Shown here piece after piece: positions 12,176-61,155 of a stretch of DNA of 64,000 nt (the first letter of the stretch is position 1; each line of letters starts with the position of its first letter). Position numbers and translations under genes: made by a program. The DNA is taken from assembly GCF_021648885.1 (NCBI RefSeq), contig NZ_JAKJHZ010000003.1:310001-374000 (forward strand), given 5' to 3'. This DNA is from Nocardioides potassii. Its GTDB lineage: Bacteria > Actinomycetota > Actinomycetes > Propionibacteriales > Nocardioidaceae. Under the pieces are notes generated by a model. The model was not told the DNA's origin, did not search any database, and worked only from the letters and a program-made list of their open reading frames with translations.

Positions 12176-12188
12176 GTGCTGGTCTCGG

Positions 12189-12236: not shown

Positions 12237-12270
12237 CTCAGGAGTGGTGTACGGCGTGTCGTTCCGTGGG

Positions 12271-45076: not shown

Positions 45077-47224
45077 TCAGTCGCGTGACCAGCGCGCGGG
45101 CAGCCACCAGTTCCACGCGCCCAGCAGCGTCATCGACGCCGGCAGCAGCAGGCCGCGCACGATCGTGACGTCGATGAGCACGGCGACCGTCATGCCCACT
45201 CCGATCTCCTTGACGGCGACGAGCTCGCCGAGCGCGAAGCCGAGGAACACGATCACGATCGCGACGGCGGCGAGGGTCACTACCGGTCCCGAGGCGGTGA
45301 TGCCGGTGAGCACGGCCCGGTCGTTGATCGCGCGGGGCTCGACCTCGCCCGCACGTCGGCGCGGCGGGCGGGCGGAGCGGGCCGCGTCCCAGGCCTCGCG
45401 GATCCTGGCCACGAGGAACACGTGGTAGTCCATCGACAGCCCGAACGCGAACATGAAGAGCAGCAGGGGAGTGGTCACGTCGATCGCACCCCACGGGTCG
45501 AAGCCGAGGAGTGAGGAGCCCCACCCCCACTGGAAGACGGCCACCACGACACCGAGCGTCGCGCCCAGCGAGAGCAGGTTGAGGACGATCGCCTTGAGGG
45601 GTACGACGATCGAGCGGGTGAGCACGCCGAGCAGCAGGGCCGTCAGAAGGGCGACGACCAGCACCGCGAGCGGCGCCCGCTCAGCAAGAGCGTCCCGAGT
45701 GTCGACCAGCTCGGCGGTGGGCCCGCCGACCGTCGCCGCCGGGCCGAGGTCGGCGGCCCGCAGCCGGCGCACGAGGTCCTGGGCCTGGGGTCCGTCGTAG
45801 TCCCCGGCGGCGTCGGGGAGCGGTTCGACGAGGATGTGGCTGCTGTCGTCCGGGCCAGGGTCGAGCAGCATCACGTCGGCCACGCCGGGCATGGCGTCCA
45901 GCGTGGCCATCGCCGCCGCGGTCTCGGGAGAGGTGTACGGCGCCTCGAGGAGCACCGTGACCTGGGTCGCGGTCTCGTCGGGGAAGCCCGCGTCGATGGC
46001 GGCCAGCGCCAGCCGTGGCTCGCTGTCCCGCGGGAGCGACCGGGTGTCGGAGTTGCGCAGGTCGAGTCCGAGCAGCGGAGAGGCGAGCACGACCAGGAGG
46101 GCGGTGCATCCCACGAGCACCAGCCACGGCCGTCGCTGGGCGAGGCCGGCCAAGCGGGCCAGGAGGGAGTGGGCGCTGGGCGTCCCGCCGAGGAACCGGC
46201 CGGCACCCGGGGCGGGCACCCGTGCGTGGCCCCACGCGATCAGCACGGGTGCGAGGGTCAGTCCGGCAAGGGTGGCCGCACCCACCGCGACCAGCCCGCC
46301 GACGGCCATCGGGGAGAGGACCGGGTCGCCGACCAGCAGCAGGCCGGTCAGTGCGGTGGCGACCGTGAGCCCCGAGACGAGCACGGTGCGCCCGGCGGTC
46401 GCCAGCGTGCGGCCGAGGACCGTGGCGAGGTCCGTCGACCGCGGGGCCGCCGCCCGCTCCTCGCGGAACCGGCCGAGGAGCAGCAGGGCGTAGTCGACAC
46501 CCAGCCCGAGGCCGAGCAGGGTCACCACGTTGACGGCGTACTCGCTCACGGACGTCACGCGCGCGAGTCCGGCGAGCGCCAGCAGCGCCGCGCAGACGGC
46601 CCCGAGCGCGGTGAGCACAGGAAGGGCGCCGGCGACGACGCCTCCGAGCGTGAGGGCCAGGACGCCGAGCAGCAGGACGACGGCGACGCCTTCCCCGCGC
46701 GCGGCGTCGCGGACGGCCTGGTCACCGAACGCCTCCTCCGCGAGCAGCGGTCCGCCGACGAGTACCTCCGGCATCGCGACTCGACGAAGCGTCTCGGCCA
46801 CCTGCCCGGCGGTGGTCACAGCGCCGTCGCGGTCCAGCGCCGGGTCGAGCTCCACCACCACCACCGTGCCGAGCCGATCCGGGGCGACCAGGTCCTGGGC
46901 ACCCGTCGTCCACGGGTCGCGCACCTCGACGACGCCGGGGAGCTCACGCACCTCGTGCAGCACGCGGGAGGCCTGGTCGACGAGGTCGACGGCGAAGACG
47001 TCCGTGCCGGTGAGCACGGCGACGACGAGCTCCCCCTCGGGGTCGACCGACTCGAGTCGCTGCGCGACCTGCGCCGACTCCGCCGACTCGCGCAGGGGAT
47101 CCGGCGTCTGCGCCAGGTCGAAGACGCCACCGCCCACGGTGGCGCCCAGCAGGACCAGGACCAGCCACGCCCCGCCGACCCAGTGGCGCCCGCGGTGGAG
47201 CACCCGCCCCAGGTCGTCCAGCAC
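45077..47224 (-). CDS. MMPL-family RND transporter
   Basis: The product is 715 residues with the RND layout: one membrane helix, a large outer loop, a cluster of helices, a second loop, and a second helix cluster. Marks are NVVTLLGLGLGVDYALLLLGRFREE in the first half and FMFAFGLSMDYHVFLVARIREAW in the second, carrying the proton-relay Asp. MMPL proteins export lipids or siderophores across the membrane; the cargo is unknown. TACAGT lies 6 bases before the GTG start (leaderless). Confidence 0.92.
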   Translation of the reverse strand: MLDDLGRVLHRGRHWVGGAWLVLVLLGATVGGGVFDLAQTPDPLRESAESAQVAQRLESVDPEGELVVAVLTGTDVFAVDLVDQASRVLHEVRELPGVVEVRDPWTTGAQDLVAPDRLGTVVVVELDPALDRDGAVTTAGQVAETLRRVAMPEVLVGGPLLAEEAFGDQAVRDAARGEGVAVVLLLGVLALTLGGVVAGALPVLTALGAVCAALLALAGLARVTSVSEYAVNVVTLLGLGLGVDYALLLLGRFREERAAAPRSTDLATVLGRTLATAGRTVLVSGLTVATALTGLLLVGDPVLSPMAVGGLVAVGAATLAGLTLAPVLIAWGHARVPAPGAGRFLGGTPSAHSLLARLAGLAQRRPWLVLVGCTALLVVLASPLLGLDLRNSDTRSLPRDSEPRLALAAIDAGFPDETATQVTVLLEAPYTSPETAAAMATLDAMPGVADVMLLDPGPDDSSHILVEPLPDAAGDYDGPQAQDLVRRLRAADLGPAATVGGPTAELVDTRDALAERAPLAVLVVALLTALLLGVLTRSIVVPLKAIVLNLLSLGATLGVVVAVFQWGWGSSLLGFDPWGAIDVTTPLLLFMFAFGLSMDYHVFLVARIREAWDAARSARPPRRRAGEVEPRAINDRAVLTGITASGPVVTLAAVAIVIVFLGFALGELVAVKEIGVGMTVAVLIDVTIVRGLLLPASMTLLGAWNWWLPARWSRD

Positions 47225-47230
47225 GGGCCG

Positions 47231-47236
47231 ACTGTA
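47231..47236 (-). promoter_or_regulatory. -10 element for a leaderless MMPL transcript
   Basis: TACAGT on the minus strand, 6 bases before the GTG at 47224. Confidence 0.5.
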
Positions 47237-47250
47237 ACCGGGGTCACCCC

Positions 47251-47272
47251 TTTTGACGAAAATCAGTCAAAA
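47251..47272. promoter_or_regulatory. Operator-like inverted repeat in an AT-rich patch
   Basis: TTTTGAC-N8-GTCAAAA, perfect 7-base arms. It lies in a roughly 50-base AT-rich island (47251-47302) about 100 bases upstream of the large secreted protein and 30 bases from the MMPL start. Confidence 0.5.
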
Positions 47273-47353
47273 GTTGTTCTCATTTCGCAATAACCCGTTT
47301 ACGGTGAGGTCGATCACATCCCGGGCGACCGCGCGGGATCTCAGGAGGAAACG

Positions 47354-50300
47354 GTGTCGAATCCCTTGCTACCCGTCCGAGCTCGTGACGCGTCGCGGCC
47401 ACGCCCCCGCACCCGGTGGGGTGCGGCGCTGCTGGTCGGCGCCGTCGCCGCCAGCCTCGCCGCGGTGGCGCCCAGCGCCTCGGCCGTCCCGGCGGGCGAC
47501 GAGCCCGGGCTGACCATGCGGGCCTACCAGCTCGGCGCGGGCATCTCTGAGCTCTGCCAGCTCAAGTCCGGGCAGACGCCCAACGTCGACCTGCTCAAGC
47601 AGGTCATCGACTGGGACGCCCCCGACGACTTCGGCGGGCTCCAGGACGACTTCGTCGTCGAGGCGCTGGCCAACCTCAGCGTGCCGACCACCGGCACCTA
47701 CAAGCTCCGCCTCACCAGCGACGACGGCTCGCGCCTCACCGTGGACGACCAGGTGGTCGTCGACAACGACGGGCTGCACGGCACCGAGGCAGTGGAGGGC
47801 AGCGTCACCCTGACCGCCGGCACGATCCACCGCCTGCGGGTCGACTACTTCGAGGCCGGCGGCGGCGAGCGGCTGCTGCTGGAGTGGATGCCGCCGGGTG
47901 CGACCACCTTCTCCGTGGTGCCGACGTCGGCGCTGAGCACCGAGGCCAACGTCACCCGCGTGACCACCCCGGGGTTCAAGCAGTGCGAGGGCCAGGACGA
48001 CTCGGCCGGCGACGGCCTGCAGCTCGACGGCGTCAACCCCGCCTACGACCTCGTGAACCTGCGCCCCGACGGCTTCGAGCCGCAGGTGACCGGGCTGGAG
48101 TGGGACGGCGACGACCTGCTGGTGCTGACCTGGGGCGGCAACGGCAACGACCAGGGCAACGTCTCCCTCGGTGAGCTCTACCGGCTCGAGGGCGTGAAGG
48201 CCGCGACCTCGCCCGCCGACGTGACCCGCACCAGGATCGCCAGCGGACTCAAGGAGCCGCAGGGCATCAAGGTCGTCGACGGCAGGATCTACGTCTCCGA
48301 GAAGACCGGGCTGATCGAGCTGCTCGACGCTGACAGCGACGGGGTCTACGAGGGCCACGACGACATCGCGACCTATCCCTTCGACGGCAACTTCCACGAG
48401 TTCGGCTTCGGCATGCTCTACGACGAGGCCACCGACCAGTTCCACCTCAACCTGTCGGTGTCGATCAACCTCGGCGGCGCGACGACCGTGCCGCAGGGCT
48501 CCTACAACCGCGGCACCCACATCACCGTCGACCGCCAGGACGGCACCATCGACTACGTCGCGGGCGGTCTCCGCACCCCGCACGGGATGGGCTGGGGTCC
48601 CGACGGCGAGATCTTCGTGACCGACAACCAGGGCGGCTGGCTGCCGGCCAACAAGCTCATCGAGATCAAGCCCGGCGAGTTCTACAACCACTACACCACC
48701 GAGCCCGACGGCACGCCCGGTCGCTTCGACGACCAGCCGGTCACCAAGCCGGTGCTGTGGATGCCGCAGAACGAGATCGCCAACTCCCCGAGCACCCCGA
48801 TCGTGGTCGAGGAGGGCCCCTACGCAGGCCAGCTGTTCATCGGCGACGTGACCTACGGCGGCCTGCAGCGCGCCGACCTCGAGGAGGTCGGCGGGGCCAA
48901 GCAGGGCGCGGTGTTCCGCATGACCCAGGGCCTCGAGGCCGGCGTCAGCCGGGTCCTCGCCGGGCCCGACGGCTCGCTGATCGTCGGAGGCCTCGGCGCC
49001 GGCGGCAACTGGGGCCAGACCGGGAAGCTCCGCTACGGCCTGCAGAAGCTCGACCTCAGCGGCGACACCCCGTTCGACATGGCCTCGATGGACGTCGTCG
49101 AGGGCGGCTTCGAGATCGAGTACACCAAGCCCCTGTCGGCCGAGACGCTCGCCGACCTCGCCTCGAAGTACCGTCTCGAGCAGTGGCACTACCGGGCCAC
49201 CTCGCAGTACGGCGGACCGAAGCTCGACGAGGAGACCCTCGAGGTCACCGAGGCCGTGGCCAGCGCGGACCACAAGACCGTCACGCTGAAGGTCGACGGC
49301 ATGAAGCCCGACCGCGTCGTGCACCTGCGCTCCCCGCGTCCCTTCGCCGCCGAGTCCGGCGAGACGCTGTGGAGCACCGAGGCCTGGTACACCCTCAACA
49401 CCTACCCCGGGTACGTCGAGCCGGAGCCGCAGGCGCCTGCCGACGGCATCTACGAGCTCGAGGACGGCCAGCTCACCGGCACCGCCGGCATCGACACCGA
49501 GCACGCCGGCTACACCGGCTCGGGCTTCGTCGACGGCATCCAGTCCATCGGCTCGGGCACCTCGGTCGAGGTGGTCGCGCCGACGGCGGGGGCGTACGAC
49601 CTGCAGATCCGCTACGCCAACGGCCCCAACCCCCAGCCGAACCAGGCGAAGAAGATGTCGCTCTACATCGGTGAGGAGAAGCAGACGATCGTCCTCCCGC
49701 CGTTCGCGGACTGGAAGACGTGGGGCACGTTCACCGTGCGGGCCACGCTCCCTGCCGGGAGGACCCGTGTGGAGATCGTCTACGAGCAGGGCGACGACGG
49801 CAACGTCAACCTCGACCACCTCAAGGTCATCGACCCCGACGCCGGGCGGGTGGAGGCCGAGGCCGGCACCATCACCGGTCAGGACAACCGTGTCCAGACC
49901 GAGCACGCCGGCTACAGCGGCACGGGCTACGTCGGTGGCTTCGAGAACGACGGCACGGCGGTGACCTTCGACGTCACTGCTGCGTCGGCCGGCTTCCACG
50001 ACGTCACGATCGGCTACGCCAACGGGCCCAACCCGCAGCCCGACCAGACCAAGGCGATGTCGCTCTACGTCAACGGTGCGTTCGTCAAGAAGCTCTCCTT
50101 CCCTCCCACCGGCTCCTGGAAGACCTGGGGGACCATCACGGACCAGGTCGAGCTCACCGCGGGCACCAACGTCATCAAGATCGCTCGCGATCCCGGTGAC
50201 AACGGCAACCTCAACCTGGACTACCTCGACCTCGGCGAGCGCCAGGCGTGCGCACCGGGTGAGACCCCGGGGCCCGATGACGAGTTCGACGGAGACACGC

Positions 50301-52174
50301 TGGACACCTGCCGTTGGAGCACCATCGTCAACAAGACGGCGACCGGAGTCAGCGTGACCGGCGGCCAGCTGGTGATCAAGGCCCAGTCGGGCGACCTGTC
50401 CGGCGGCGCGGTCGACGCGAAGAACATGATCCTCCAGGACTCGCCGGCCGACGGTCCCTGGGCCGCCACCACGCAGGTGACCATGACGGGCACCGACGAC
50501 TACCTCCAGGGTGGTGTGGTCGCGTGGACCGACGCGATGAACTACGCCAAGCTCGTCGCGATGGAGAAGCCGGACGGCGACTGGGTCCTCGAGCTGGGTC
50601 GCCGGGTCAACGGCGAGATGCTCTACACCAACGCCGACCTGCCCGACGGGGCTGCGCCCGACCAGCTGCAGCTGCAGATGGTCTCGACCGGCACCGCCAT
50701 CCAGGGACGCTGGTCGGTCGACCAGGGCCAGACGTGGAGCTCGATGGGTTCGGGCTACCCGAGCACGGGGCTCGTCGCGCCCAAGATCGGCGTTGCCGCC
50801 TACAACGGCACCGGCACCCAGACCGGCGCGTTCGACTGGTTCCGCCTCGACGGCGATCCCGTCGTCGAGCCGGACACCTGTCAGGCGACCGCGGCCGATC
50901 CCGGCTACCGCATGCTGTTCGACGGCACGGCCGAGAGCCTCGAGGGCTGGAAGATGGCCGGTCCCGGCCTGTTCACCCGTGAGGCCGACTGCTCGCTGAA
51001 GACCAACGGCGGCCTGGGCCTGCTGTGGCACTCCGACCCGCTGGACGACGACTACTCGCTCCAGCTGGACTGGAAGCTCGCCGGCGACGACAACGGCGGC
51101 GTCTTCGTCGGGTTCCCGAACCCGGAGACGACGCCCCGCTACGACGGTGACGCTCCCAACCCGGCCGGTGACCCCTGGGTGGCGGTCGACCGCGGCTACG
51201 AGATCCAGATCGACGCCACGGACCTGCCCGACCGCACGACCGGCGCCGTCTACACGTTCCAGGGCGCCAACGACCAGCGCGATGCGGCGCTCGAGCCGGT
51301 CGGGCAGTGGAACCACTACGAGATCAAGGTCGAGGGCAAGCGGATCCGCGTCTACCTCAACGACGTGCTCGTCAACGACTACACCAGCCCGGCGAGCGAG
51401 TCGAAGCGGTTGACCTGGCCCAGCCACATCGGGATCCAGAACCACGGCGGCGGCGACGAGGTCTACTACCGCGACATCCAGGTCAAGGACCTCGCCGACC
51501 CGGAGAACGTCGCCTCGACAGTGACGGTCACGGCTCCGGAGCAGGTGGAGACCGGGAAGACCGCGCAGGTCGAGGTCGAGGTCACCTCGGCGGCCGAGGA
51601 GGTCGCGACCGGCGAGGTGGTGCTGTCGGTCGACGGCAACGACCTGCCGGGCGTCGAGCTCGAGGACGGCACGGCGACGTTCGACGTCGGTCCGTTCGCG
51701 CAGGCCGGCACGGTGGAGCTGGAGGCGTCGTACGCCGGCGACCTGGCGCACGACGCGGGACAGGGCAGCGCCACGATGAAGGTGGTCTCGCCGACCGCCC
51801 CGCCCACGACCCCGCCGACGACCACGCCCACCCCGCCGACCACCCCGCAGGGCGGCACGGCTGAGCCGACGGTGAAGGTGCTCGGGCGCGGGACAGCGGA
51901 CGCGACGCCGAACCGGCGCAAGGCGAAGCTCACGCTCCGCTGCGGCTCGGACGACTGCGCGGGCAAGGTGGTGCTCCGCACCACCGGGAAGAAGGCGAAG
52001 CGCCTCGGTGCGGCGACCTTCGACCTCGGCGCACGCGACAAGGGCAGGATCACGCTCACCCTCACCAAGCGGGCGCGCACCCTCCTCGGAGCGAGCAAGA
52101 CGGTGAAGGCCGTCCTCGTCGTCCGGTTCGAGGACGGCCCGACCCAGAAGGTGAGGGTCCGACTCACCCGGTGA
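47354..52174 (+). CDS. Large secreted protein: PA14, GSDH-type beta-propeller, two CBM6-like domains, DUF1349-like and 3-keto-disaccharide-hydrolase (DUF1080) domains
   Basis: The product is 1606 residues. Domains in order: Sec signal (cut after ~44, SASA); PA14 (about 53-180); a six-bladed propeller resembling sugar dehydrogenases (about 234-560; GGLRTPHGMGWGPDGEIFVTDN); two CBM6/35-type modules (about 697-826 and 831-962) that are duplicates; a DUF1349-like sheet (about 976-1169); a DUF1080 domain (about 1184-1379; GYRMLFDGTAESLEGW, FVGFPNPE, WNHYEIKVEGKRIRVYLND, IGIQNHGGGDEVYYRDIQVK); an Ig-like domain (about 1386-1477); a Pro/Thr linker and a short C-terminal domain. No cell-wall anchor is seen. 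AGGAGG is 5 bases from the GTG. It may oxidise and cleave glycosides outside the cell. Domain borders are approximate. Confidence 0.85.
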   Translation: MSNPLLPVRARDASRPRPRTRWGAALLVGAVAASLAAVAPSASAVPAGDEPGLTMRAYQLGAGISELCQLKSGQTPNVDLLKQVIDWDAPDDFGGLQDDFVVEALANLSVPTTGTYKLRLTSDDGSRLTVDDQVVVDNDGLHGTEAVEGSVTLTAGTIHRLRVDYFEAGGGERLLLEWMPPGATTFSVVPTSALSTEANVTRVTTPGFKQCEGQDDSAGDGLQLDGVNPAYDLVNLRPDGFEPQVTGLEWDGDDLLVLTWGGNGNDQGNVSLGELYRLEGVKAATSPADVTRTRIASGLKEPQGIKVVDGRIYVSEKTGLIELLDADSDGVYEGHDDIATYPFDGNFHEFGFGMLYDEATDQFHLNLSVSINLGGATTVPQGSYNRGTHITVDRQDGTIDYVAGGLRTPHGMGWGPDGEIFVTDNQGGWLPANKLIEIKPGEFYNHYTTEPDGTPGRFDDQPVTKPVLWMPQNEIANSPSTPIVVEEGPYAGQLFIGDVTYGGLQRADLEEVGGAKQGAVFRMTQGLEAGVSRVLAGPDGSLIVGGLGAGGNWGQTGKLRYGLQKLDLSGDTPFDMASMDVVEGGFEIEYTKPLSAETLADLASKYRLEQWHYRATSQYGGPKLDEETLEVTEAVASADHKTVTLKVDGMKPDRVVHLRSPRPFAAESGETLWSTEAWYTLNTYPGYVEPEPQAPADGIYELEDGQLTGTAGIDTEHAGYTGSGFVDGIQSIGSGTSVEVVAPTAGAYDLQIRYANGPNPQPNQAKKMSLYIGEEKQTIVLPPFADWKTWGTFTVRATLPAGRTRVEIVYEQGDDGNVNLDHLKVIDPDAGRVEAEAGTITGQDNRVQTEHAGYSGTGYVGGFENDGTAVTFDVTAASAGFHDVTIGYANGPNPQPDQTKAMSLYVNGAFVKKLSFPPTGSWKTWGTITDQVELTAGTNVIKIARDPGDNGNLNLDYLDLGERQACAPGETPGPDDEFDGDTLDTCRWSTIVNKTATGVSVTGGQLVIKAQSGDLSGGAVDAKNMILQDSPADGPWAATTQVTMTGTDDYLQGGVVAWTDAMNYAKLVAMEKPDGDWVLELGRRVNGEMLYTNADLPDGAAPDQLQLQMVSTGTAIQGRWSVDQGQTWSSMGSGYPSTGLVAPKIGVAAYNGTGTQTGAFDWFRLDGDPVVEPDTCQATAADPGYRMLFDGTAESLEGWKMAGPGLFTREADCSLKTNGGLGLLWHSDPLDDDYSLQLDWKLAGDDNGGVFVGFPNPETTPRYDGDAPNPAGDPWVAVDRGYEIQIDATDLPDRTTGAVYTFQGANDQRDAALEPVGQWNHYEIKVEGKRIRVYLNDVLVNDYTSPASESKRLTWPSHIGIQNHGGGDEVYYRDIQVKDLADPENVASTVTVTAPEQVETGKTAQVEVEVTSAAEEVATGEVVLSVDGNDLPGVELEDGTATFDVGPFAQAGTVELEASYAGDLAHDAGQGSATMKVVSPTAPPTTPPTTTPTPPTTPQGGTAEPTVKVLGRGTADATPNRRKAKLTLRCGSDDCAGKVVLRTTGKKAKRLGAATFDLGARDKGRITLTLTKRARTLLGASKTVKAVLVVRFEDGPTQKVRVRLTR

Positions 52175-52180: not shown

Positions 52181-52215
52181 TCCGGGTGGTCAGGCTCAGC
52201 GCCTGACCACCCGGA
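52181..52215. terminator. Bidirectional terminator
   Basis: A 15-bp perfect stem (TCCGGGTGGTCAGGC and its complement) around a 5-base loop, between the large secreted gene and the convergent methyltransferase, whose stop codon lies in the loop. Confidence 0.82.
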
Positions 52216-52825
52216 CCAGGCAGTCCCAGGCCGTACGCCGTTCCTCGCCGCCGTGCTCGTGGTGGTCCGCGGAGGCGGTCGTGACCTCGCGCGCGACCCG
52301 CCCGGCGTGGACCACCTCGAGCTCGAGCCCGTCGAGCCCGTCGAGGTCGGCGAGCACGTCGTCGGCCGTCATCAGCACCGACGGGTCCTGCGGCCCGCCG
52401 GTGCCCTCGGTGAGGTTGGTCGAGTCGTGGGCGACGAGGAAGAGGGTCCTGCCCGGCCGCAGCATCGCGAACGCGTTGCGCACCGCTGACCGTCGCTCGT
52501 CAGCCGGTAGCTGGAGGTAGGCGACCACCACGAGGTCGGCCGGCTCGGGTGGCATCCACGTCGTCGCGTCGGCACGGACCCAGGTGACGTCGAGGTCTCC
52601 TGCGAGCCGGGCACCCTTGTCGAGCGCGACCTGAGAGAAGTCGACCGCGGTCGCCCTCCAGCCGCGCGACGCGAGCCAGATCGCGTTGCGCCCCTCGCCC
52701 GCGGCGAGGTCGACGGCCGTGCCGGGCGCGAGGTCGGAGAGCTCGGCGGCCACGAACTGGTTGGGCTCGGCCGACCAGACGAGGTCGCTGGCGGCGTACC
52801 GCTCGTCCCAGGCGCGTGCGTCCAT
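52196..52825 (-). CDS. Class I SAM-dependent methyltransferase
   Basis: The product is 209 residues. Motif I is AVDLAAGEGRNAIWLASRGW, motif II ATAVDFSQVALDKG, and VRADATTWMPPEPADLVVVAYLQLP follows. The layout resembles tellurite-resistance-like (TehB) methyltransferases: EPNQFVAAELSDLAPG near the start and the acidic VDLAAGEGRN. The substrate is unknown. It lies 9 bases after the GH36 gene on the same strand. Confidence 0.85.
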   Translation of the reverse strand: MDARAWDERYAASDLVWSAEPNQFVAAELSDLAPGTAVDLAAGEGRNAIWLASRGWRATAVDFSQVALDKGARLAGDLDVTWVRADATTWMPPEPADLVVVAYLQLPADERRSAVRNAFAMLRPGRTLFLVAHDSTNLTEGTGGPQDPSVLMTADDVLADLDGLDGLELEVVHAGRVAREVTTASADHHEHGGEERRTAWDCLVRVVRR

Positions 52826-52834: not shown

Positions 52835-54970
52835 CTAGGGTCGAGACGCCGCCGGTCGGGCGACCGCACGCAGGACCCGTGCCTCCTCGGGCGCGAGCAC
52901 GGGCAGCGCCACCCCGACCCGGGCCAGGACGTGCCCGGCGAGCCCGACCCCGGACGCGGACCAGGAGCCGGTGAGGTCGGCCCCGCCCCCGGACGGCGGA
53001 AGCTCCTCGGTCAGGTCGTAGGTGAGAGCGGGGTCGAGCCCGGTGAGCCGCAGCGGAGCAGGGTGCTGGGTCTCCGTCTGCGCGACGCTGGCCACGACGT
53101 ACCACGCCTCGGACCTGTCGTCGGCCACGACGCCGGTCACGACGACGGCGGGGTCCGGGTGGTCGGGGTGCACGAGGCTCCCGGAGGCGATGAGAGGGCG
53201 CACGCGCTTGTGCAGGTCGATCCACGAGCGGAGCTCGGCGAGACCCGCCTCGTCGAGCTGCGTCATGTCCCACTCGATACCGAACGAGTAGAGCAGCGCG
53301 GTCGCGGCGCGGTAGCGCAACGCGTGCGTCCGACCCGTGGTGTGCGAGGTCGGCCCGCCCACGTGCGAGCCCATCAGCTCGGGTGGGACCAGCAACGACG
53401 TCCACCTCTGGAGGTGCTGCCGCTCGAGGGGGTCGATCGTGTCACTCGGCCAGATGCGGTCGGTGCGCGTCAGGACCTCGGCATCCACCCGTGCGCCTCC
53501 GGACGAGCACGACTCGATCTCGAGCGCGGGGTGGGCGTCGCGCAGCTCGTCGAGCAGCCGGTAGGCCGCCAGCGTCTGGCCGTGCACCGCCGGCCGGCCC
53601 GCGTGCGTCGCGTCGGTGAGGTCGCGGTTGTGGTCCCACTTGAGGTAGGAGATGTCCAGCCCGTCGAGGAGGGCGAGGAGCGCGTCGCGCACGTCCGCGA
53701 AGGCGTCGTCGTCCTGCAGGTCGAGGACCTGCTGGTGGCGCCACTCGGGTGGCAGTCCTGCCCGCCCCCGCAGCACCCGCTCCGGGTGCTCGCGGGCGAC
53801 CTCGGAGTCGAGGTTGACCATCTCGGGTTCCACCCAGAGGCCGAACTCCATGCCGCGGCCGGTGACGTGCTGCACCAGCGGGCCGAGGCCGTCGGGCCAG
53901 ATCGTCGGGTCGACCCGCCAGTCGCCGAGCGCGGAGGTGTCGTCGCGGCGCCCCAGGAACCACCCGTCGTCGAGGACGAAGCGCTCGACGCCGACCGACG
54001 CGGCCACGTCCGCGAGCTCGGTGAGCCGCTCGAGCGACTGGTCGAAGTAGACCGCCTCCCACGTGTTGGCGATGACCGGCCGATCGGTGCGTTCGCGGGG
54101 TGCCACCGCGCGCAGGTGGGCGTGGAAACGGTGGCTGAGCGGGTCGAGGCCGGCGGGCGACCACGAGCCGAGCAGCCAGGGGGACCGGTAGGTCTCGCCC
54201 GGCGCGAGCACGACCTCGCCTGCCGTGAGCAGCTCGCCACCGCCGAGGAGGCAGTCGCCCTCCGGCGTGCGCTCGGCGTACGTCGTGTGGTTGCCGCTCC
54301 AGGCGGTGTGCACGGCCCACACCTCACCGCTGGCGAAGTCGAAGCCCGGTGTGCCCGACACCAGGAGGAGGGTGGCGTCGTGGCCGGTGCGGCCGTGCCG
54401 CGCGTCCCGACGGTGCGTGCCCTGCACCCAGGGGTGGCGCTGGGGAGCGCGCTCCTTGCACCACCTCCCGGTGAGGTCGAGCAGCTCGGTGGCGTGCGCC
54501 CCGACCGGGAGCGCCGACAGCACGGAGGTCAGGTGGAGGTCGCCGTCGGCGGCGTTGGTGACCGACGTCCGCGTGTGGAGCAGGCCGCCGTCGTCCAGCG
54601 CGAGCTGGACCATGACGTCCCAGCCCGCCTCGGCGTCGCTCGAGGTGCAGGTGAGGGCGCTGTCGCCGACGCTGGTCTGCCACTCGACCAGGCTGGGCGC
54701 CGCCGCGGCGGAGTCGCCGCCCACCCGGTGACCCTCCAGCGCGGGGGTGCCGGCGAAACCGCGGGTGCCGTCGGGCACGAGGCCCGTCGCGCGCGGGACG
54801 TCGTACGACGACCGCGCGACGCCCGGCCGCCGGGCCGCGACCAGGGCGGCGAGGGCGTCGTCGTCCAGGTCGCCCAGCCCGGCGCCCCAGTGCGCGACGA
54901 ACGGGATCCCGGCGTCGTCGCTGCCCAGCACGATGCTGACGCCACCGTTGCTCAGGTGCGCCACGGTCAT
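52835..54970 (-). CDS. Alpha-galactosidase, GH36
   Basis: The product is 711 residues, the usual length. The nucleophile Asp is in ISYLKWDHNRDL and the acid/base Asp in RIWPSDTIDPLERQ; FVLDDGWFLGRRDD, GLWVEPEMVN and IESCSSGGARVD are signature blocks. It hydrolyses terminal alpha-1,6-galactose from melibiose or raffinose-type sugars. No signal peptide, so it is cytoplasmic. The start overlaps the DeoR stop by 4 bases. Confidence 0.95.
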   Translation of the reverse strand: MTVAHLSNGGVSIVLGSDDAGIPFVAHWGAGLGDLDDDALAALVAARRPGVARSSYDVPRATGLVPDGTRGFAGTPALEGHRVGGDSAAAAPSLVEWQTSVGDSALTCTSSDAEAGWDVMVQLALDDGGLLHTRTSVTNAADGDLHLTSVLSALPVGAHATELLDLTGRWCKERAPQRHPWVQGTHRRDARHGRTGHDATLLLVSGTPGFDFASGEVWAVHTAWSGNHTTYAERTPEGDCLLGGGELLTAGEVVLAPGETYRSPWLLGSWSPAGLDPLSHRFHAHLRAVAPRERTDRPVIANTWEAVYFDQSLERLTELADVAASVGVERFVLDDGWFLGRRDDTSALGDWRVDPTIWPDGLGPLVQHVTGRGMEFGLWVEPEMVNLDSEVAREHPERVLRGRAGLPPEWRHQQVLDLQDDDAFADVRDALLALLDGLDISYLKWDHNRDLTDATHAGRPAVHGQTLAAYRLLDELRDAHPALEIESCSSGGARVDAEVLTRTDRIWPSDTIDPLERQHLQRWTSLLVPPELMGSHVGGPTSHTTGRTHALRYRAATALLYSFGIEWDMTQLDEAGLAELRSWIDLHKRVRPLIASGSLVHPDHPDPAVVVTGVVADDRSEAWYVVASVAQTETQHPAPLRLTGLDPALTYDLTEELPPSGGGADLTGSWSASGVGLAGHVLARVGVALPVLAPEEARVLRAVARPAASRP

Positions 54971-55770
54971 GCGTCGTCCACCTCGTCGAGGTCGTCGACC
55001 GGGTCGACCACCAGCAGCTCGCCGACGTGGTCGGTCAGGGCGCCGCTGGCCTGGGCGGGCAGCCCGGAGTCGGTGACGAGCACGTCGGCCTCCGAGAGCC
55101 CGGCCATGCTGCTGAGACCCACGACGCCCCACTTGCTGGAGTCGGCGCACACGATGAGCCGCCGCGACCGCTCGATCATGGCGCGGTTGGTCTCGGATTC
55201 GAGGAGGTTGGGCGTGCTGTAGCCCGCGCGCACGTCCATCCCGTGCACGCCCATGAAGAAGGCGTCGACGTGCAGGCTGCGGAGCGAGGACACCGCCACG
55301 GGGCCCACCAGGGCGTCGGACGGGGTTCGCAGGCCACCCGTCAGCAGCACCGACGTCGTGGGCTCGCCGAGGCGGTGGAGGACATCGGCCACCCACACCG
55401 AGTTGGTCACGACGGTCAGGTCCGGGATCCGGGCGATGTGCTCGGTGAGCGCGTGCGTGGTGGTGCCGGCCGAGACCGCGATGGCCATGCCGGGTCGCAC
55501 CAGGTCGGCAGCAGCGGTCGCGATCGCCTCCTTCTCCCGGCGGTGCTGGACCGACTTCGCGGCGAAGCCCGGCTCCGACGACGACGGCTCGGCGACGGCG
55601 AGCGCGCCACCGTGGACCTTCTCCAGCAGGCCCTCGCGGTGCAGCGCCACCAGGTCGCGCCGCACGGTCATGTCGGACACGCCCAGCAGCTCGACGAGGT
55701 CGGTGACGCGCACGGTCCCGTCGCGGCTGAGCTCGGAGAGGATCCGGCCCCGTCGCTGCGCCGCGAGCAT
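54967..55770 (-). CDS. DeoR-family regulator
   Basis: The product is 267 residues. The N-terminal HTH (RILSELSRDGTVRVTDLVELLGVSDMTVRRDLVAL) is standard DeoR, and the sugar-phosphate-binding DeoRC domain has VSAGTTTHALTEHI and VLLTGGLRTPSDALVGP. It lies between the two galactosidase genes (1-base overlap with GH42, 4-base with GH36), so it is likely the operon's own regulator. Its effector would be a sugar phosphate. Confidence 0.92.
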   Translation of the reverse strand: MLAAQRRGRILSELSRDGTVRVTDLVELLGVSDMTVRRDLVALHREGLLEKVHGGALAVAEPSSSEPGFAAKSVQHRREKEAIATAAADLVRPGMAIAVSAGTTTHALTEHIARIPDLTVVTNSVWVADVLHRLGEPTTSVLLTGGLRTPSDALVGPVAVSSLRSLHVDAFFMGVHGMDVRAGYSTPNLLESETNRAMIERSRRLIVCADSSKWGVVGLSSMAGLSEADVLVTDSGLPAQASGALTDHVGELLVVDPVDDLDEVDDA

Positions 55771-57791
55771 CAGGACCTCCGGCCGGCAAGGTCGAGGGTC
55801 TCGCGGACGACGGCGACCCCGCCCGGCGGGACGAGGAGGTCGCCGGCGACGGGGCGACCGGTGACCAGCTCGACGCCGTCGACGGGGACCGGGGCTTCGT
55901 CGTCCCCGTGGTTGATCACGAAGAGCCAGCTGGCGTCGTCCCTCGCCCTCCGGGTCACCTCGACGGACGGGGAGGCGCCGGGCAGCCGTGCTGCACCGGA
56001 CTCGCCCACCAGTCGCTCGACGAGGCGGTCGGTACCGGCGGCGTCGAGCCGGGTGGCGACGTACCAGGCGCTCCCGCGACCCACGTCGTGTCGTGTCACG
56101 GCAGGCAGTCCGGCTGCCGGGCCGTCGGCATGGGTCGCCACCGCCTCGGCGCCGGCGAGCTCGAGGTCCTCGGTCCACACGTCGGCCGTCACCGCGTCCG
56201 CACCGAGGCCCTCCACCTGCACCGACTCGCCCTCGAGCAGCGGCATGAGCTCCGTGACGCGCACCCCGAGGAGGTCGCGGAAGGCGCCTGGGTAGCCGCC
56301 GAGCCGGATGTGGTCGGACTCGTCGACGATGCCGCTGAAGTAGGTCACGACCACTGTCGTACCCCGTTCGGCTGCCGCCACGAGCGCGGCGACCGTCTCG
56401 TCGGAGACCAGGTAGAGGGTCGGGACCACGACGAGCGTGTAGGGCGACAGGTCGGCCGTCGGGTGGACGACGTCGACCCCGACCCCGTACGCCGACAGCG
56501 CGCGGTGGAGGTCCTCGGCGCGGTCGCGGTAGCGGACGTCGACGCTCGGGTGCGAGTCGAGCTCGCACCCCCACCACGCCTCGTAGTCGAAGAGGATCGC
56601 GGTGTCGTTGCGGGCCTCGCTCCCCGTGACCTCCTCGATCGCGTCGAGGATGCCGGAGAGCTCGACCACCTCGCGCCACTGCCGGGTGTCGGTGCCGGCG
56701 TGGGGGAGCAGCCCGGAGTGGAACTTCTCGGCGCCCGCCCGCGAGGCTCGCCACTGGAAGTAGAGCACCGCGTCGGCGCCGTGCGCGACGTGGGCGAGGC
56801 TGTTGCGGATCATCTCGCCCGGCCGCTTGGCGCGGTTGCGGGGCTGCCAGTTGACCGCGCTCGTCGAGTGCTCCATCAGCAACCACGGGCGTCCGCCGGC
56901 CGTGCCGCGCGTCAGGTCGGCGCTGAACGCGAGCTCGTGGTGGCCGCCTGCATCGGCGGCGATGAGGTAGTGGTCGTTGGAGACGACGTCGAGCTCGCGC
57001 CCCCACCGCAGGTAGTCCATCTCCATCGTCTGGCGCATGACCATGAAGTTCGTGGTCACCGGCACCCCGGGGGAGACGCGGTGCAGCACGTCGCGCTCGA
57101 CGACGAAGTTGTCGAGCAGCTGGTCGGAGGAGAAGCGCAGGAAGTCGAGCTGCTGGGTCGGGTTGGCGTGGGTCGGCGCGCTCCTCGGCGGCAGCACCTG
57201 CGCGAAGTCGTCGTAGCGCTGCGACCAGAAGGCGGTGCCCCAGGCCTCGTTGAGCCCCGCCACGTCGCCGTACCGGTCGCGCAGCCACGTGCGGAACGCC
57301 TCGGCGCTGACGTCGCAGTAGCACCGGGCGTTGTGGCAGCCGATCTCGTTGGACACGTGCCACAGCGCGAGCGCGGGGTGGTCGCGGTAGCGCTCGGCCA
57401 TCGCGGTGCAGAGCTCGAGCGCGTGCTCGCGGTAGACCGGGGAGCTGGGGCAGAAGGACTGCCGGCCTCCCGGCCAGAGCGTCCGCCCGTCCTGGGTGAC
57501 GGGCAGCATCTCCGGGTGGCGCTGGGTCAGCCACGGGGGTGGCGACGCGGTGGCGGTCGCCAGGTCGACGCGGACGCCCGCGGCGTGGAGCTCGTCCATC
57601 TGCTCGTCGAGCCATCCGAACTCCCAGGCACCCGGTCGGGGTTGGATCCACGCCCACGAGAACACGCCCACGGTCACCAGGTCCACGCCGGCGGCGCGCA
57701 TCAGCTCGCGGTCCTCGCGATGTGCCGTGGTGTCCCACTGCTCGGGGTTGTAGTCGCCACCGAAGGCGAGGGGCGGCAGGGGCGTCGGCAT
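55770..57791 (-). CDS. Beta-galactosidase, GH42
   Basis: The product is 673 residues. FGGDYNPEQW opens the barrel; the acid/base Glu is in WHVSNEIGCHN, the nucleophile Glu in LLMEHSTSAVNWQPRN. The zinc-cluster Cys motif CHNARCYC is present. Domains B (trimerisation) and C follow to the end. No signal peptide, so it hydrolyses imported galactosides. I start at ATG 57791; 12 residues upstream could be added in the same frame. Confidence 0.95.
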   Translation of the reverse strand: MPTPLPPLAFGGDYNPEQWDTTAHREDRELMRAAGVDLVTVGVFSWAWIQPRPGAWEFGWLDEQMDELHAAGVRVDLATATASPPPWLTQRHPEMLPVTQDGRTLWPGGRQSFCPSSPVYREHALELCTAMAERYRDHPALALWHVSNEIGCHNARCYCDVSAEAFRTWLRDRYGDVAGLNEAWGTAFWSQRYDDFAQVLPPRSAPTHANPTQQLDFLRFSSDQLLDNFVVERDVLHRVSPGVPVTTNFMVMRQTMEMDYLRWGRELDVVSNDHYLIAADAGGHHELAFSADLTRGTAGGRPWLLMEHSTSAVNWQPRNRAKRPGEMIRNSLAHVAHGADAVLYFQWRASRAGAEKFHSGLLPHAGTDTRQWREVVELSGILDAIEEVTGSEARNDTAILFDYEAWWGCELDSHPSVDVRYRDRAEDLHRALSAYGVGVDVVHPTADLSPYTLVVVPTLYLVSDETVAALVAAAERGTTVVVTYFSGIVDESDHIRLGGYPGAFRDLLGVRVTELMPLLEGESVQVEGLGADAVTADVWTEDLELAGAEAVATHADGPAAGLPAVTRHDVGRGSAWYVATRLDAAGTDRLVERLVGESGAARLPGASPSVEVTRRARDDASWLFVINHGDDEAPVPVDGVELVTGRPVAGDLLVPPGGVAVVRETLDLAGRRS

Positions 57792-57822
57792 GCGCCCACT
57801 GTGGCGACCCTCACGTGGGGAA

Positions 57823-57920
57823 GTCAACGTTTCAACCGTGGATTACGTCGAAAAATGTTTGATCAAGTCCGAATTGAGGCGGGTTTGGCCTTGACGAGGG
57901 TGTGCCGACGGTCACATGCT
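57823..57920. promoter_or_regulatory. Divergent control region of the galactosidase and ABC operons
   Basis: GTCAACGTTTCAAC (57823-57836) and TTGATCAA (57859-57866, a perfect palindrome) are operator candidates for the DeoR regulator. For the ABC operon TTGACG (57891-57896) and CATGCT (57915-57920) are spaced by 18 bases. GGAGG (57948-57952) is the ribosome site, 6 bases from the GTG at 57959. Confidence 0.45.
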
Positions 57921-57958
57921 GTGGCTCCCTGTTCGGTTTTGTCCCCCGGAGGTCTCCC

Positions 57959-59290
57959 GTGTCACGTCCCCTCTCCACCGCCATCCCCCGCTCCACCGTG
58001 GCCACGACGGCCGCGACGCGCCGCTCCGTGCTCCGAGGGCTGGGGCTCGGCGGGCTCGCCGTCGGCGGTGCCAGCCTGCTCGCGGCGTGTGGCGGCGACA
58101 GCGGCGGCGGTGCTGCCAGCGGGTCGGGCGCGACGGTGAAGTTCGGCATCAACGAGGCGGAGGGCGCGGGCGCGGCCCACGACCGCCTGGCCGCGATCGC
58201 GCAGGCCTACCAGAAGGAGTCCGGGACCAAGGTCGAGGTCAACGCGGTCGACCACAACACCTTCCAGGAGAGCATCAACACCTATCTCCAGGGCACGCCC
58301 GACGACGTCTTCACCTGGTTCGCCGGGTTCCGGATGGCGCAGTTCGCCGAGAACGGCCTGATCACCGACCTCAGCGACGAGTGGCCCATCGACGGCCTCA
58401 ACGACTCCTTCAAGCAGGCGTCCACCGCGGCCGACGGCAAGCAGTACTTCGTGCCCATCAGCTACTACCCGTGGGCCGTCTTCTACCGCAAGTCGGTCTT
58501 CGAGAAGAACGGCTGGGAGGCGCCGACCACCAACGACGACTTCATGGCGCTGATGGACGACATGCAGGGCAAGGGCATCACGCCGTTCGCGTTCGGCGAC
58601 AAGGACGGCTGGCCGGCGATGGGGACGTTCGACATCCTCAACATGCGCCTCAACGGCTTCGACTTCCACATGAGCCTGATGGCCGGCGACGAGGCCTGGG
58701 ACGGCGACGAGGTCAAGGGCGTCTTCGACACGTGGCGCAAGCTCCTGCCCTACCACCAGGCCGACCCGCTCGGGCGTACGTGGCAGGAGGCCGCCACCGC
58801 GATGGGCAAGGGCGAGTGCGGCATGTACCTGCTCGGCACCTTCGTCGTCGACGCCCTCGGCGAGAACGGCGAGGACCTCGACTTCTTCACCTTCCCCGAG
58901 CTCGACTCCTCCATCGGCTCGGACGCGCTCGACGCGCCGATCGACGGCTTCTGCGTCGCCGCGGCGGGCAAGAACCAAGAGGCGGGCAAGGCGATGGCGA
59001 AGTGGCTCGGCAGCGCCGCCGCGGCCGACGCGGGCAACAACGCCGCCGACGCGCCCTTCATCGCCGCCAACTCCGGCGCCAGCACCTCCACCTACAGCGA
59101 CCTGCAGAAGAAGTCGGCCGAGGTCGTCGGCGCGGCTGCCAACATCGCGCAGTTCATGGACCGCGACACCAACGCCGACTTCGCCAACACGGTCATGATC
59201 CCGTCCATCCAGGCGTTCCTGAAGAACCCGGACGACATCGACGGGGTGACGGCCAGCATCCAGGAGCAGGCCAACTCCATCTTCGGCTGA
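57959..59290 (+). CDS. ABC sugar transporter, substrate-binding lipoprotein
   Basis: The product is 443 residues. The signal is Tat-like (TRRSVLRGLGLGGLAVGG) and ends in a lipobox SLLAAC with Cys 44. The mature domain (VNAVDHNTFQESINTYLQGTPDDVFTWFAGFRMAQFAENGLI) is a family 1 carbohydrate-binding type. It sits divergent from GH42, so galactosides are a likely ligand. It opens the operon with two permease genes. Confidence 0.92.
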   Translation: MSRPLSTAIPRSTVATTAATRRSVLRGLGLGGLAVGGASLLAACGGDSGGGAASGSGATVKFGINEAEGAGAAHDRLAAIAQAYQKESGTKVEVNAVDHNTFQESINTYLQGTPDDVFTWFAGFRMAQFAENGLITDLSDEWPIDGLNDSFKQASTAADGKQYFVPISYYPWAVFYRKSVFEKNGWEAPTTNDDFMALMDDMQGKGITPFAFGDKDGWPAMGTFDILNMRLNGFDFHMSLMAGDEAWDGDEVKGVFDTWRKLLPYHQADPLGRTWQEAATAMGKGECGMYLLGTFVVDALGENGEDLDFFTFPELDSSIGSDALDAPIDGFCVAAAGKNQEAGKAMAKWLGSAAAADAGNNAADAPFIAANSGASTSTYSDLQKKSAEVVGAAANIAQFMDRDTNADFANTVMIPSIQAFLKNPDDIDGVTASIQEQANSIFG

Positions 59291-59293
59291 GTC

Positions 59294-60229
59294 ATGACAC
59301 ACCTCGACGAGGCGCCACGGTCGGAGAAGGCCGTGGCGCCCGCCCAGGGCCGCGAGAAGAAGCTGCCGGGCCGTGACCGGTTGACCGTCATCACGATGGT
59401 GGCGATCCCGCTCGTCCTCGTCGTCCTGCTCGTGTGGGTGCCGGCGCTGCTGTCGGTCGCGCTGTCGTTCGGCAAGTGGAACGGGTTCGGCGACATCGAC
59501 ACCATCGAGTGGGTCGGCGTCCAGAACTACAAGGACATCTTCACGATCTACCCGGCGTTCTGGCCGGCGGTGCAGCACAACCTCATCTGGCTGGGATTCC
59601 TCTTCCTGTTCCCGACCGTGCTGGGGATGCTGCTCGCCGTGGTGCTGGACCGCGAGATGCGGGGCAGCCGGTTCTACCAGACGGCGTTCTACATGCCGGT
59701 GGTGCTGTCGCTGGCCCTCATCGGCTTCATCTGGCAGCTCTTCTACTCCCGCGACCAGGGGCTCATCAACCAGGTGTTCCACAGCGAGGTCGACTGGTAC
59801 GGCGACCCCGACATCAACCTCTGGGCGGTGCTGGTCGCCACCGCGTGGCGTCACACCGGCTACATCATGCTCATCTACCTGGCCGGGCTGAAGGGCATCG
59901 ACGCCAGCCTGCGCGAGGCCGCCGCCGTCGACGGCGCCAACGAGGTGCGCACCTTCTTCAGCGTGATCTTCCCGGTGATGCGGCCCATCAACATGGTCGT
60001 CGTCGTCATCGTGGTGATCGAGTCGCTGCGTGCCTTCGACCTGGTGTGGGTCATCAACAAGGGCCGCAACGGGCTGGAGGTCATCGGCGCGCTGGTGGCG
60101 CAGAACGTGATCGGTGAGGCGACGCGGTACGGCTTCGGCTCCGCGCTCGCGGTGATCATGATGCTGATCTCGTCGGTCTTCATCACCATCTACCTACGGA
60201 CCGTCTTCCGCGAGGAGCGACAGCGATGA
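59294..60229 (+). CDS. ABC sugar transporter permease 1 (MalF type)
   Basis: The product is 311 residues with six membrane segments. The EAA loop is LREAAAVDGANEVRTFFSVIFPVMRP. It pairs with the next permease, whose start overlaps its stop by 4 bases. No ATPase gene is in this operon. Confidence 0.93.
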   Translation: MTHLDEAPRSEKAVAPAQGREKKLPGRDRLTVITMVAIPLVLVVLLVWVPALLSVALSFGKWNGFGDIDTIEWVGVQNYKDIFTIYPAFWPAVQHNLIWLGFLFLFPTVLGMLLAVVLDREMRGSRFYQTAFYMPVVLSLALIGFIWQLFYSRDQGLINQVFHSEVDWYGDPDINLWAVLVATAWRHTGYIMLIYLAGLKGIDASLREAAAVDGANEVRTFFSVIFPVMRPINMVVVVIVVIESLRAFDLVWVINKGRNGLEVIGALVAQNVIGEATRYGFGSALAVIMMLISSVFITIYLRTVFREERQR

Positions 60230-61155
60230 CCTACGAGACCCCCGTCGCGGTCGCGCCACCCGAGCGCCGCGCGGCCGCGCCGGTGCGCCGGGAGGGTGGC
60301 GTGCTCAGCCAGCGTCGCGGCACGGTGGCGACGGTGATCATGGCGGTGCTCGCGCTGCTCTGGCTCTTCCCGCTCGTGTGGGCGCTCATCAACTCCTTCC
60401 GCGAGTACGAGTACACCCAGGTCAACGGCTACCTGTCCTTCGGCGGCTGGACCACCAGCAACTACCGGCAGGCCTGGTCGCAGGGCGACTTCGGCCTGCA
60501 CATGAAGAACTCGTTCCTCATCACCGTGCCGGCGGTGCTGCTGACGCTCTGGCTCTCCTCGATGGTCGCGTTCGTGCTGGCTCGCTTCAGCTACCGCTTC
60601 AACCTCGCGCTGCTGGGAGTCTTCCTGGCCGCCAACCTGCTGCCGCCGCAGGCCCTGCTCATCCCGGTCTTCCGGATGTTCCGCGAGGTCCCGCTGCCCT
60701 ACTTCATGAGCGACTCGGGATCGATGCTCAACAGCTTCTGGGCGCTGATCCTCGTCAACACCGCGTTCCAGATGGGCTTCTGCACGTTCGTGCTCAGCAA
60801 CTACATGAAGACGCTCCCGCACGAGATCTACGAGTCGGCCGAGCTCGACGGGGCGAGCGTGTGGCGGCAGTACTGGCAGCTGACGATGCCGCTGGTGCGT
60901 CCTGCGCTCGCGGCACTCGCGACGCTCCAGGTCACCTGGGTCTACAACGAGTTCTTCTGGGCCACGGTGCTGATCCAGCAGGGCGACAAGCTGCCGGTCA
61001 CCTCGGCCCTCAACAACCTGCGGGGCCAGTTCTTCACCGACACCAACCTGGTCGCGGCCGGATCGATCATCGTCGCGCTGCCGGTCCTCGTGGTGTTCTT
61101 CGCCCTGCAGAAGCAGTTCGTCTCCGGCCTCACCCTGGGCTCGACGAAGGGCTGA
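60226..61155 (+). CDS. ABC sugar transporter permease 2 (MalG type)
   Basis: The product is 309 residues with six membrane segments. The EAA loop is IYESAELDGASVWRQYWQLTMPLVRP. ATGA overlap with permease 1. The ATPase must come from elsewhere, as in the shared MsiK system of actinobacteria. It converges on nagA with a 3-base gap. Confidence 0.93.
   Translation: MTYETPVAVAPPERRAAAPVRREGGVLSQRRGTVATVIMAVLALLWLFPLVWALINSFREYEYTQVNGYLSFGGWTTSNYRQAWSQGDFGLHMKNSFLITVPAVLLTLWLSSMVAFVLARFSYRFNLALLGVFLAANLLPPQALLIPVFRMFREVPLPYFMSDSGSMLNSFWALILVNTAFQMGFCTFVLSNYMKTLPHEIYESAELDGASVWRQYWQLTMPLVRPALAALATLQVTWVYNEFFWATVLIQQGDKLPVTSALNNLRGQFFTDTNLVAAGSIIVALPVLVVFFALQKQFVSGLTLGSTKG

Follow-up and report, generated by a model that had tools for sequence, protein, structure and literature searches.

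Can a single secreted protein both oxidise a sugar and cleave the 3-keto-glycoside that results? The question is raised by a gene at positions 47354-52174 (+ strand) of a 64,000-nucleotide stretch of the Nocardioides potassii genome (contig NZ_JAKJHZ010000003.1, positions 310,001 to 374,000), the whole of which is referred to below as the window. The gene encodes a secreted multidomain protein of 1606 amino acids in a single frame with a GTG start. An initial annotation had proposed that a dehydrogenase-like propeller and a 3-keto-disaccharide hydrolase domain (DUF1080, PF06439) are combined here on one exported chain, and the single chain is confirmed, with a signal peptide read by eye. Besides the action of ordinary glycosidases, cleavage of 3-keto-glycosides has lately been recognised as another route, and we give slightly less than an even chance to the reading that this secreted protein processes glycans with both halves of this route on one chain.

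The PF06439 domain occupies residues 1185-1378 (50906-51487, + strand) and scores 109 bits (E 3.9e-31) against a Pfam cut-off of 26.8 bits; the gene is the sole PF06439 match in the window's genome. In a model of the domain (predicted local distance difference test, pLDDT, 94.5) the nearest solved fold is 9fbe, a 3-keto-glycoside eliminase/hydratase (Z 21.7, 3.0 Å, 187 aligned residues). Other close solved folds (3hbk, 8v31, 8tda and 3osd) all lie within about 1 Z unit of 9fbe, the last of them, BT2157, at Z 20.8 and 3.0 Å with 188 aligned residues. The 14 entries at the head of the fold comparison (Z 18.6-21.7) are also those matched by the domain's sequence profile, and the first matches outside the PF06439 family are 1oq1 (Z 17.2) and CBM66 (Z 16.7).

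All 49 actinomycete domains aligned keep Asn1247, Gly1249, Glu1283, Gln1285, Tyr1300, Trp1319, Tyr1322, Asn1336, Gln1362, His1364 and Arg1373. With four plasmid rows added, Glu1283 and Gln1285 (51200-51208, + strand), Asn1336 and Gln1362 are kept in 54/54 rows, and His1364 of the QxHG motif (51443-51445, + strand) and Arg1373 in 51/54. The 54-row alignment leaves out seven of 56 domains (L016, L030, L031, L032, L036, L078 and L080), and the 49-row alignment additionally leaves out L015 and the four plasmid rows. Asp1287, which seemed invariant in the 49-row alignment, is aligned with another residue in the 54-row one and was dropped as a site residue. Judged from residue numbers only, and not from a direct alignment to 3osd, 8rr2 or 9fbe, His1364 would correspond to His275 of the Bacteroides thetaiotaomicron 3-keto-O-glycoside lyase; the H275N variant of that enzyme is described as deficient in hydration in PMC13273386. 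With its site intact and its fold nearest to 3-keto-glycoside eliminase/hydratases, the domain is of the type that cleaves 3-keto-glycosides, as the initial annotation had it, and conservation and modelling indicate that it is very probably active on 3-keto sugars.

The other half of the proposed route would reside in the propeller (residues ~200-570; 47951-49063, + strand). An AlphaFold model of residues 195-700, built on an 81-row alignment (mean pLDDT 88.7), consists of a six-blade propeller followed by an Ig-like part. Its closest solved fold is the soluble glucose dehydrogenase (sGDH) 1qbi (Z 28.4, 3.0 Å, 316 aligned residues), an enzyme dependent on pyrroloquinoline quinone (PQQ). Other PQQ-type sugar dehydrogenases score Z 26.4 or higher, and the first match not of PQQ type, to SMP30-type lactonases, is at Z 23.7. 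By sequence, no Pfam family exceeds its cut-off in the propeller of the window copy (NHL reaches only 16.7 of 20 bits), and neither PF07995 (GSDH) nor PF23500 (DUF7133) gives a match up to E 1 in the window protein. The cut-off of 27 bits for PF23500 is passed by two relatives, L026 (31.6) and L060 (28.9). A weak match to TIGR02604 (16.8 bits in the window propeller; 35.8 bits, E 5.7e-9, in L026) stays far below the cut-off of 122.2 bits in both proteins. A sequence search with the propeller against the PDB was uninformative, returning mainly designed repeat propellers with weak scores. The propeller appears to form a six-blade branch of its own, with distant kinship to DUF7133/TIGR02604 and the fold of PQQ sugar dehydrogenases.

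To relate its residues to those of sGDH, blade order was combined with the full-length structural alignment, which runs in order (model residues 24-375 against sGDH 4-452); of six blade-wise crops, blades 4 and 6 fell in the expected register. The roles of the PQQ-binding and catalytic residues of sGDH, including Lys377 as another PQQ contact, are taken from PMC6881789 (Lys377 included) and PMC6881810. His348 of the pair His348-Glu349 (48395-48400, + strand; invariant in 81/81 and 10/10 rows) lies by blade order at the place of the catalytic His144, a placement made by eye as the blade-3 crops were out of the expected register. Arg407-Thr408 (48572-48577, + strand) takes the place of the Arg228-Asn229 dyad, with both residues kept in 81/81 actinomycete rows and Ser at the Thr408 position in four non-actinomycete rows. 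We are moderately sure of these equivalences.

Invariant in all 81 actinomycete rows are His348, Glu349, Arg386, Arg407, Asp424, Asn425, Gln426, Trp429, Trp469, Asp498, Arg506, Gln517 and Trp553; the alignment excludes L001, L009, L082 and L084-L087, and is redundant, some genomes being the same as those of the contig loci. Four homologues found in Gammaproteobacteria and Bacteroidota keep the same set except for Asp424, which is Glu in one. This set looks like an active site, although it is unproven as a PQQ site.

Homologues outside the actinomycetes mostly come with electron carriers. A protein search of plasmid records gave ten places in six records; the best place per record was examined, and four further Catenovulum places were left out. 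Five records (Catenovulum twice, Runella, Rufibacter and Gemmatirosa) cover 78-85% of the propeller, and in all five an electron carrier is fused or adjacent. Cytochrome c genes lie 1 and 4 bases upstream of the propeller gene on the two Catenovulum plasmids, cytochrome c is fused to the propeller in Runella and a cupredoxin in Rufibacter, and Gemmatirosa has a partial cytochrome c match (35/90 positions) near the frame end. The remaining match, in Sinorhizobium, covers 32% of the query, with no electron carrier listed nearby. The two Catenovulum homologues come close to the PF07995 cut-off (24.4 and 24.9 of 25 bits). Directly upstream of the propeller gene, Runella (at 78 bases) and Rufibacter (at 2 bases) have a gene with PF06439 and PA14; one Catenovulum locus has a DUF1080 gene upstream with two genes between, and the other lists none. 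The dehydrogenase-like character assigned to the propeller by the initial annotation is therefore upheld in part, by the fold nearest to PQQ sugar dehydrogenases and by homologues with electron carriers and, in part, PF06439 genes, but not as regards a PQQ site as such.

Among actinomycetes, the family sample of 149 genomes has the propeller in 11 and the phylum sample of 296 has it in 8, the window's own genome included in each. PA14, propeller and DUF1080 are found in one frame in 52 of the 71 contig loci with an intact frame, a share that may lean towards DUF1080 carriers, as the loci were found by peptide patterns from the window protein, DUF1080 patterns included. The phylum sample adds eight loci in other genomes, some of which are contig-locus genomes as well, and in seven of the eight DUF1080 is likewise on the chain. 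A tree of these domains separates two DUF1080 classes (split support 100/99), with the caveats that one long row, L133, meets the class split and that the bootstrap had yet to settle. In the clade of Nocardioides, L010 and Motilibacter (100/98) the propeller carries class A, which is also found on the ThuA-GSDH proteins L084 and L086; the remaining propellers of the tree carry class B. This distribution implies that DUF1080 became attached to the present propeller on two occasions or more, or was exchanged on it, and was joined to an unrelated propeller besides. The pairing is supported by these two classes together with the carriers of the five plasmid homologues, two of which stand beside PF06439 and PA14 genes, and the repeated joining to two unrelated propellers makes it directly testable.

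Two further arrangements were seen in these loci. A Salsipaludibacter gene (L048, 7884-14165) encodes 2094 residues with two DUF1080 domains, one per class, and glucodextranase-like C-terminal parts. In Micromonospora, a CopC-domain gene (L049, 6844-7713) lies upstream, on the same strand, of a PA14-propeller gene that has no DUF1080, and its gene cluster recurs, by clustering, in the same position in 12 other Micromonospora loci.

In the proposed mechanism, PA14 and the pair of CBM35 modules would hold the protein on a glycan or oligosaccharide, and the propeller would oxidise a sugar hydroxyl, presumably at C3, with cofactor, acceptor and glycan substrate equally conjectural. DUF1080 would then eliminate the leaving group and add water, as its fold and conserved site suggest, the order of the reactions being our supposition. 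The freed 3-keto sugar may be imported by a ROK-regulated RbsABC system and reduced inside the cell by a Gfo-type enzyme like that of a gene set on contig C12 of the window's genome. This last step is proposed because of a linked gene run in a sister genus of the same family (g8), where the gene follows RbsA, RbsC, RbsB and Gfo on one strand, with ROK on the opposite one. The layout is found in 2/2 genomes of the family sample, Pfam having been run on one of them, L146. Shortly downstream of the run in L146, on the other strand, there is a multicopper-oxidase-like gene (11533-12582).

On contig C12 (L161, 4108-11481), ROK, RbsA, RbsC, RbsB and Gfo are 58-66% identical to the g8 genes, and the next gene shows a weak resemblance to IolE (47 bits against a cut-off of 290). 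The Gfo proteins of L146 and C12 match levoglucosan dehydrogenase (NF052479) over the full length with 383 and 369 bits, below the cut-off of 650; by sequence, Gfo is a relative of that enzyme and not an equivalog. The product of levoglucosan dehydrogenase is a 3-keto sugar, according to PMC10066097. Relatives of ROK, RbsABC or Gfo also flank L026, L042 and L045, and RbsC, RbsB and Gfo flank L086, which is of the ThuA type. A ROK gene 53% identical to that of g8 (L025, 4254-5462) stands beside the MMPL and propeller-DUF1080 genes of Nocardioides litoris.

A number of results weigh against a two-step enzyme of this kind. In the propeller, Asn229 of the Arg/Asn dyad is replaced by Thr in 81/81 rows. 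The Arg pair that clamps the PQQ carboxylates in sGDH (406 and 408) is absent, the aligned blade-6 stretch being Gly-Val-Ser-Arg-Val, with Arg or Glu shifted by one place; the corresponding R-x-R is invariant in 30 GSDH rows. A profile-profile alignment to GSDH favoured, with low confidence, a register shifted by two blades, which was set aside in view of the ordered structural alignment. The chain has no electron carrier, and neither the window protein nor any matching frame in 86 loci, of which nine are cut by the locus end, contains the motif C..CH. PqqE, the only PQQ-synthesis protein searched for, has no match above cut-off in the genome (best 107 against 381 bits), although control genomes score below this cut-off too and PQQ may be supplied externally; four PF07995 matches are found in the same genome. 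With the Arg pair absent, Asn exchanged for Thr and no PqqE above cut-off, a PQQ site as such, for which the initial annotation had proposed a test, is not supported. That annotation held that its proposal would fall if both the cofactor-binding residues of the propeller and the DUF1080 catalytic site were missing; the DUF1080 site is present, whereas the propeller appears to keep a partial catalytic set without the PQQ clamps.

The remaining points against the two-step reading concern the pairing and its context. Nineteen of the 71 contig loci (17 Micromonospora, 2 Actinoplanes) lack DUF1080 and have carbohydrate-binding modules only, which implies that the propeller can work without DUF1080. 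Gfo is near in only 3/73 contig propeller loci and 0/8 phylum-sample loci, so that the Gfo/RbsABC linkage is a minority context. Near the non-actinomycete propellers, the QxHG histidine is missing from the upstream PF06439 gene of Rufibacter (QGDQG) and from that of Catenovulum (QSEG), and in Runella it lies one residue later (QGDHG); all three have Lys for Arg1373, and a second Rufibacter DUF1080 gene keeps both His and Arg. As two of three PF06439 genes near these propellers are without the site histidine, our estimate for the two-step reading was lowered from an even chance. The products of PF06439 genes near non-actinomycete propellers that show no QxHG histidine and Lys for Arg (L136, 5848-7734; L133, 6066-6941) may be binding proteins or act differently.

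The missing PQQ clamps, the lack of a carrier and the 19 loci that pair the propeller with carbohydrate-binding modules only would also fit a propeller that is no oxidoreductase at all but a binding or structural part, in which case DUF1080 would act on 3-keto sugars that come from other enzymes or organisms. We regard this as unlikely, though a serious competitor. The invariant polar set, kept in 81/81 rows and, bar Asp424, in the four non-actinomycete rows, would be unusual for a mere scaffold, and electron carriers accompany the non-actinomycete homologues. Nor does the genome offer a LacC-type subunit to make the 3-keto sugars, though Gfo-type enzymes are present: Gluconate_2-dh3 (PF13618), the family of LacC, has no match in the window's genome, and the controls Caulobacter and Haloferax were positive. 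It is distinctly improbable that the propeller is itself a glycosidase whose products DUF1080 processes or merely binds, even though there is a precedent among distant relatives of this propeller (16.8 bits to TIGR02604, 35.8 in L026). The closest published activity is that of Lac161_ORF7, in which TIGR02604, HEAT and cytochrome c parts are combined; according to PMC5342196, this Verrucomicrobia protein, once purified, released glucose when given lactose, with a Km of 1.8 mM and a kcat of 13.2 per s. The relation to TIGR02604 is remote, far below the 122-bit cut-off, and Lac161_ORF7 carries a cytochrome c; as described there, E. coli served for its overexpression and a glucose oxidase kit for the readout, so that a contaminating host activity is conceivable. 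Its result would fit either a glycosidase activity of the propeller or a step in an oxidative route.

A role in the cell envelope, in which the protein would trim or oxidise a glycolipid or wall glycan handled by an exporter, is suggested by the adjacent MMPL-family gene (45077-47224, - strand). This is the conserved neighbour: it is adjacent in 16/16 Nocardioides contig loci, divergent in 15 and on the same strand in L025, with 129 bases between the genes in the window. In six of these loci (L019, L020, L021, L023, L025 and L041) MMPL is kept and the eight other window neighbours searched are all absent. It also lies just upstream in 6/8 Catellatospora loci, with 54-56% identity. The other 51 propeller contig loci have no MMPL at E 1e-20, six of them with less than 4 kb upstream, and in the family sample, whose genomes overlap with the contig loci, MMPL is adjacent by coordinates in nine same-genus genomes with the propeller and not in the two g8 genomes. 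A paralogous MMPL (54-59% identical), present in the window's genome, was seen one or two genes from a GSDH-PKD gene in three of six paralogue loci (L139, 3441-9312; L140; L142), and in view of this count and of the intervening genes it was not used as evidence. MMPL is unlinked in g8 and in eight phylum-sample loci, and CBM35, PA14 and the g8 sugar genes fit nutrition; an envelope role seems hardly probable to us.

Returning to the two-step reading, its stronger form would be a new class of secreted sugar-3-oxidase without the sGDH-type PQQ clamp and without a carrier domain, perhaps using O2 or a diffusible acceptor, with oxidation, elimination and hydration on one chain and uptake left to a linked or distant RbsABC/Gfo set. 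We hold this form to be doubtful. Were the two-step reading true, bacteria could open glycans extracellularly in a way that is missed in glycosidase screens, and a propeller family annotated by resemblance only would gain a function, with a single protein to test. PMC11501099 reports that deletion strains of BT2157 and BT2158 grew without defect on raffinose-family sugars, which calls for caution on the physiological weight of the 3-keto route.

The gene itself has the features of a real coding sequence. Codon G+C by position in the 47354-52174 frame (0.67/0.48/0.96) is typical of a real gene at 71.6% G+C, and an AGGAGG-like ribosome site precedes the GTG, its GAGG being kept when the region upstream of the gene is aligned with those of 16 Nocardioides loci. 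The frame is not due to chance, since the same long protein (1569-1710 amino acids, 48-80% identity) is encoded at these 16 Nocardioides contig loci. An antisense open frame of 1460 residues (47369-51751, - strand) spans most of the gene and is probably an effect of the high G+C content rather than a gene.

All modules are on the + strand. The Sec-type signal peptide (47354-47485), read by eye, has a basic start, a hydrophobic run and an AxA-like end near residue 44, and is followed by PA14 (residues 50-189; 47501-47920; Pfam E 5.8e-26). After the propeller come the Ig-like part covered by the AlphaFold model and conserved beyond actinomycetes (residues ~575-690; 49076-49423), two Pfam-matched CBM35 copies (residues 700-825, 49451-49828; residues 832-960, 49847-50233, E 4.9e-24) and a GH43_C2-like concanavalin-fold module (residues 976-1164; 50279-50845; Pfam E 4.8e-8). 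Downstream of DUF1080 lie a Big_3_5 Ig domain (residues 1393-1477; 51530-51784; Pfam E 8.7e-9) and, after a Pro/Thr linker, a C-terminal basic module seen in the sequence (51869-52171), for which no Pfam family is listed. The domains named in the initial annotation exist, but its count of six missed the Ig-like part, the GH43_C2-like module, Big_3_5 and the C-terminal module.

Downstream of the gene, a methyltransferase gene on the opposite strand (52196-52825) is followed by an alpha-galactosidase-like gene of glycoside hydrolase family 36 (GH36; 52835-55789, - strand), a beta-galactosidase-like GH42 gene (55770-57827, - strand) and genes of a sugar ATP-binding cassette (ABC) importer, comprising a binding protein and two permeases (57902-61155, + strand). 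These galactoside genes had been named as neighbours of the enzyme and do lie nearby; the methyltransferase, however, intervenes, and GH36 and GH42 are on the opposite strand. They are unconserved neighbours, near in 6/16 Nocardioides loci, or 6/15 when only contigs that reach that far are counted (L025 ends 274 bases after the gene). Not being one transcription unit with the gene, and recurring in 6/16 loci against 16/16 for MMPL, the galactoside cluster was abandoned as the main contextual clue.

The 129-bp divergent intergenic region (47225-47353) contains an AT-rich block, CAAAAGTTGTTCNCA (47268-47282), which together with a CCTAGGGTG-like element is conserved upstream in most aligned Nocardioides loci. 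With up to 2 mismatches allowed, the genome has CAAAAGTTGTTCNCA at a single place, and no regulon shared with the C12 sugar cluster was found. A palindrome scan of the upstream regions revealed none in common.

Among known systems, the BT2156-BT2160 route of B. thetaiotaomicron resembles the present case in a PF06439 protein of the same fold and profile match and in a Gfo-type oxidoreductase, which here is found in the g8 run. It differs in having separate glycoside/disaccharide 3-dehydrogenases (NCBIfam BT_2158_fam and BT_2159_fam), in place of which the window protein has a propeller on the PF06439 chain. The BT_2158_fam and BT_2159_fam dehydrogenases depend on nicotinamide adenine dinucleotide. 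In Caulobacter crescentus, LacABC and a DUF1080 protein are likewise proposed to oxidise and cleave lactose outside the cytoplasm, and in PMC9007349 a DUF1080 protein is said to be important for lactose use, with BT2157 cited as hydrolysing 3-ketotrehalose; in Caulobacter, three separate components form the lactose dehydrogenase, whereas the window's genome has no Gluconate_2-dh3 match.

Soluble PQQ glucose dehydrogenases and AA12 pyranose dehydrogenases share with the window protein the six-blade propeller and probably, by blade order, a catalytic His and one Arg, but the window protein lacks the PQQ Arg pair, has Thr for Asn, and shows neither a Pfam GSDH match nor a cytochrome domain. To the DUF7133/TIGR02604 propellers of heme-binding CxxCH proteins of the Planctomycetes-Verrucomicrobia-Chlamydiae (PVC) type it is distantly related in sequence, without their CxxCH heme part. 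A propeller and DUF1080 are also found on one chain in proteins composed of ThuA, a GSDH (PF07995) propeller, PKD and DUF1080 (L084, 9457-14232, and L086, 4644-8549, both with CBM6; L045, 11322-15887, with F5/8 type C), of class A in L084 and L086; these differ in the PF07995 propeller, the ThuA domain and the absence of a PA14 match. A literature search confined to CC-licensed papers, and so no proof of absence, found no account of the single-chain architecture. Neither the route nor any of the domain types is new; their combination on a single chain, where other bacteria keep the two functions apart, is widespread in the sequence collections searched.

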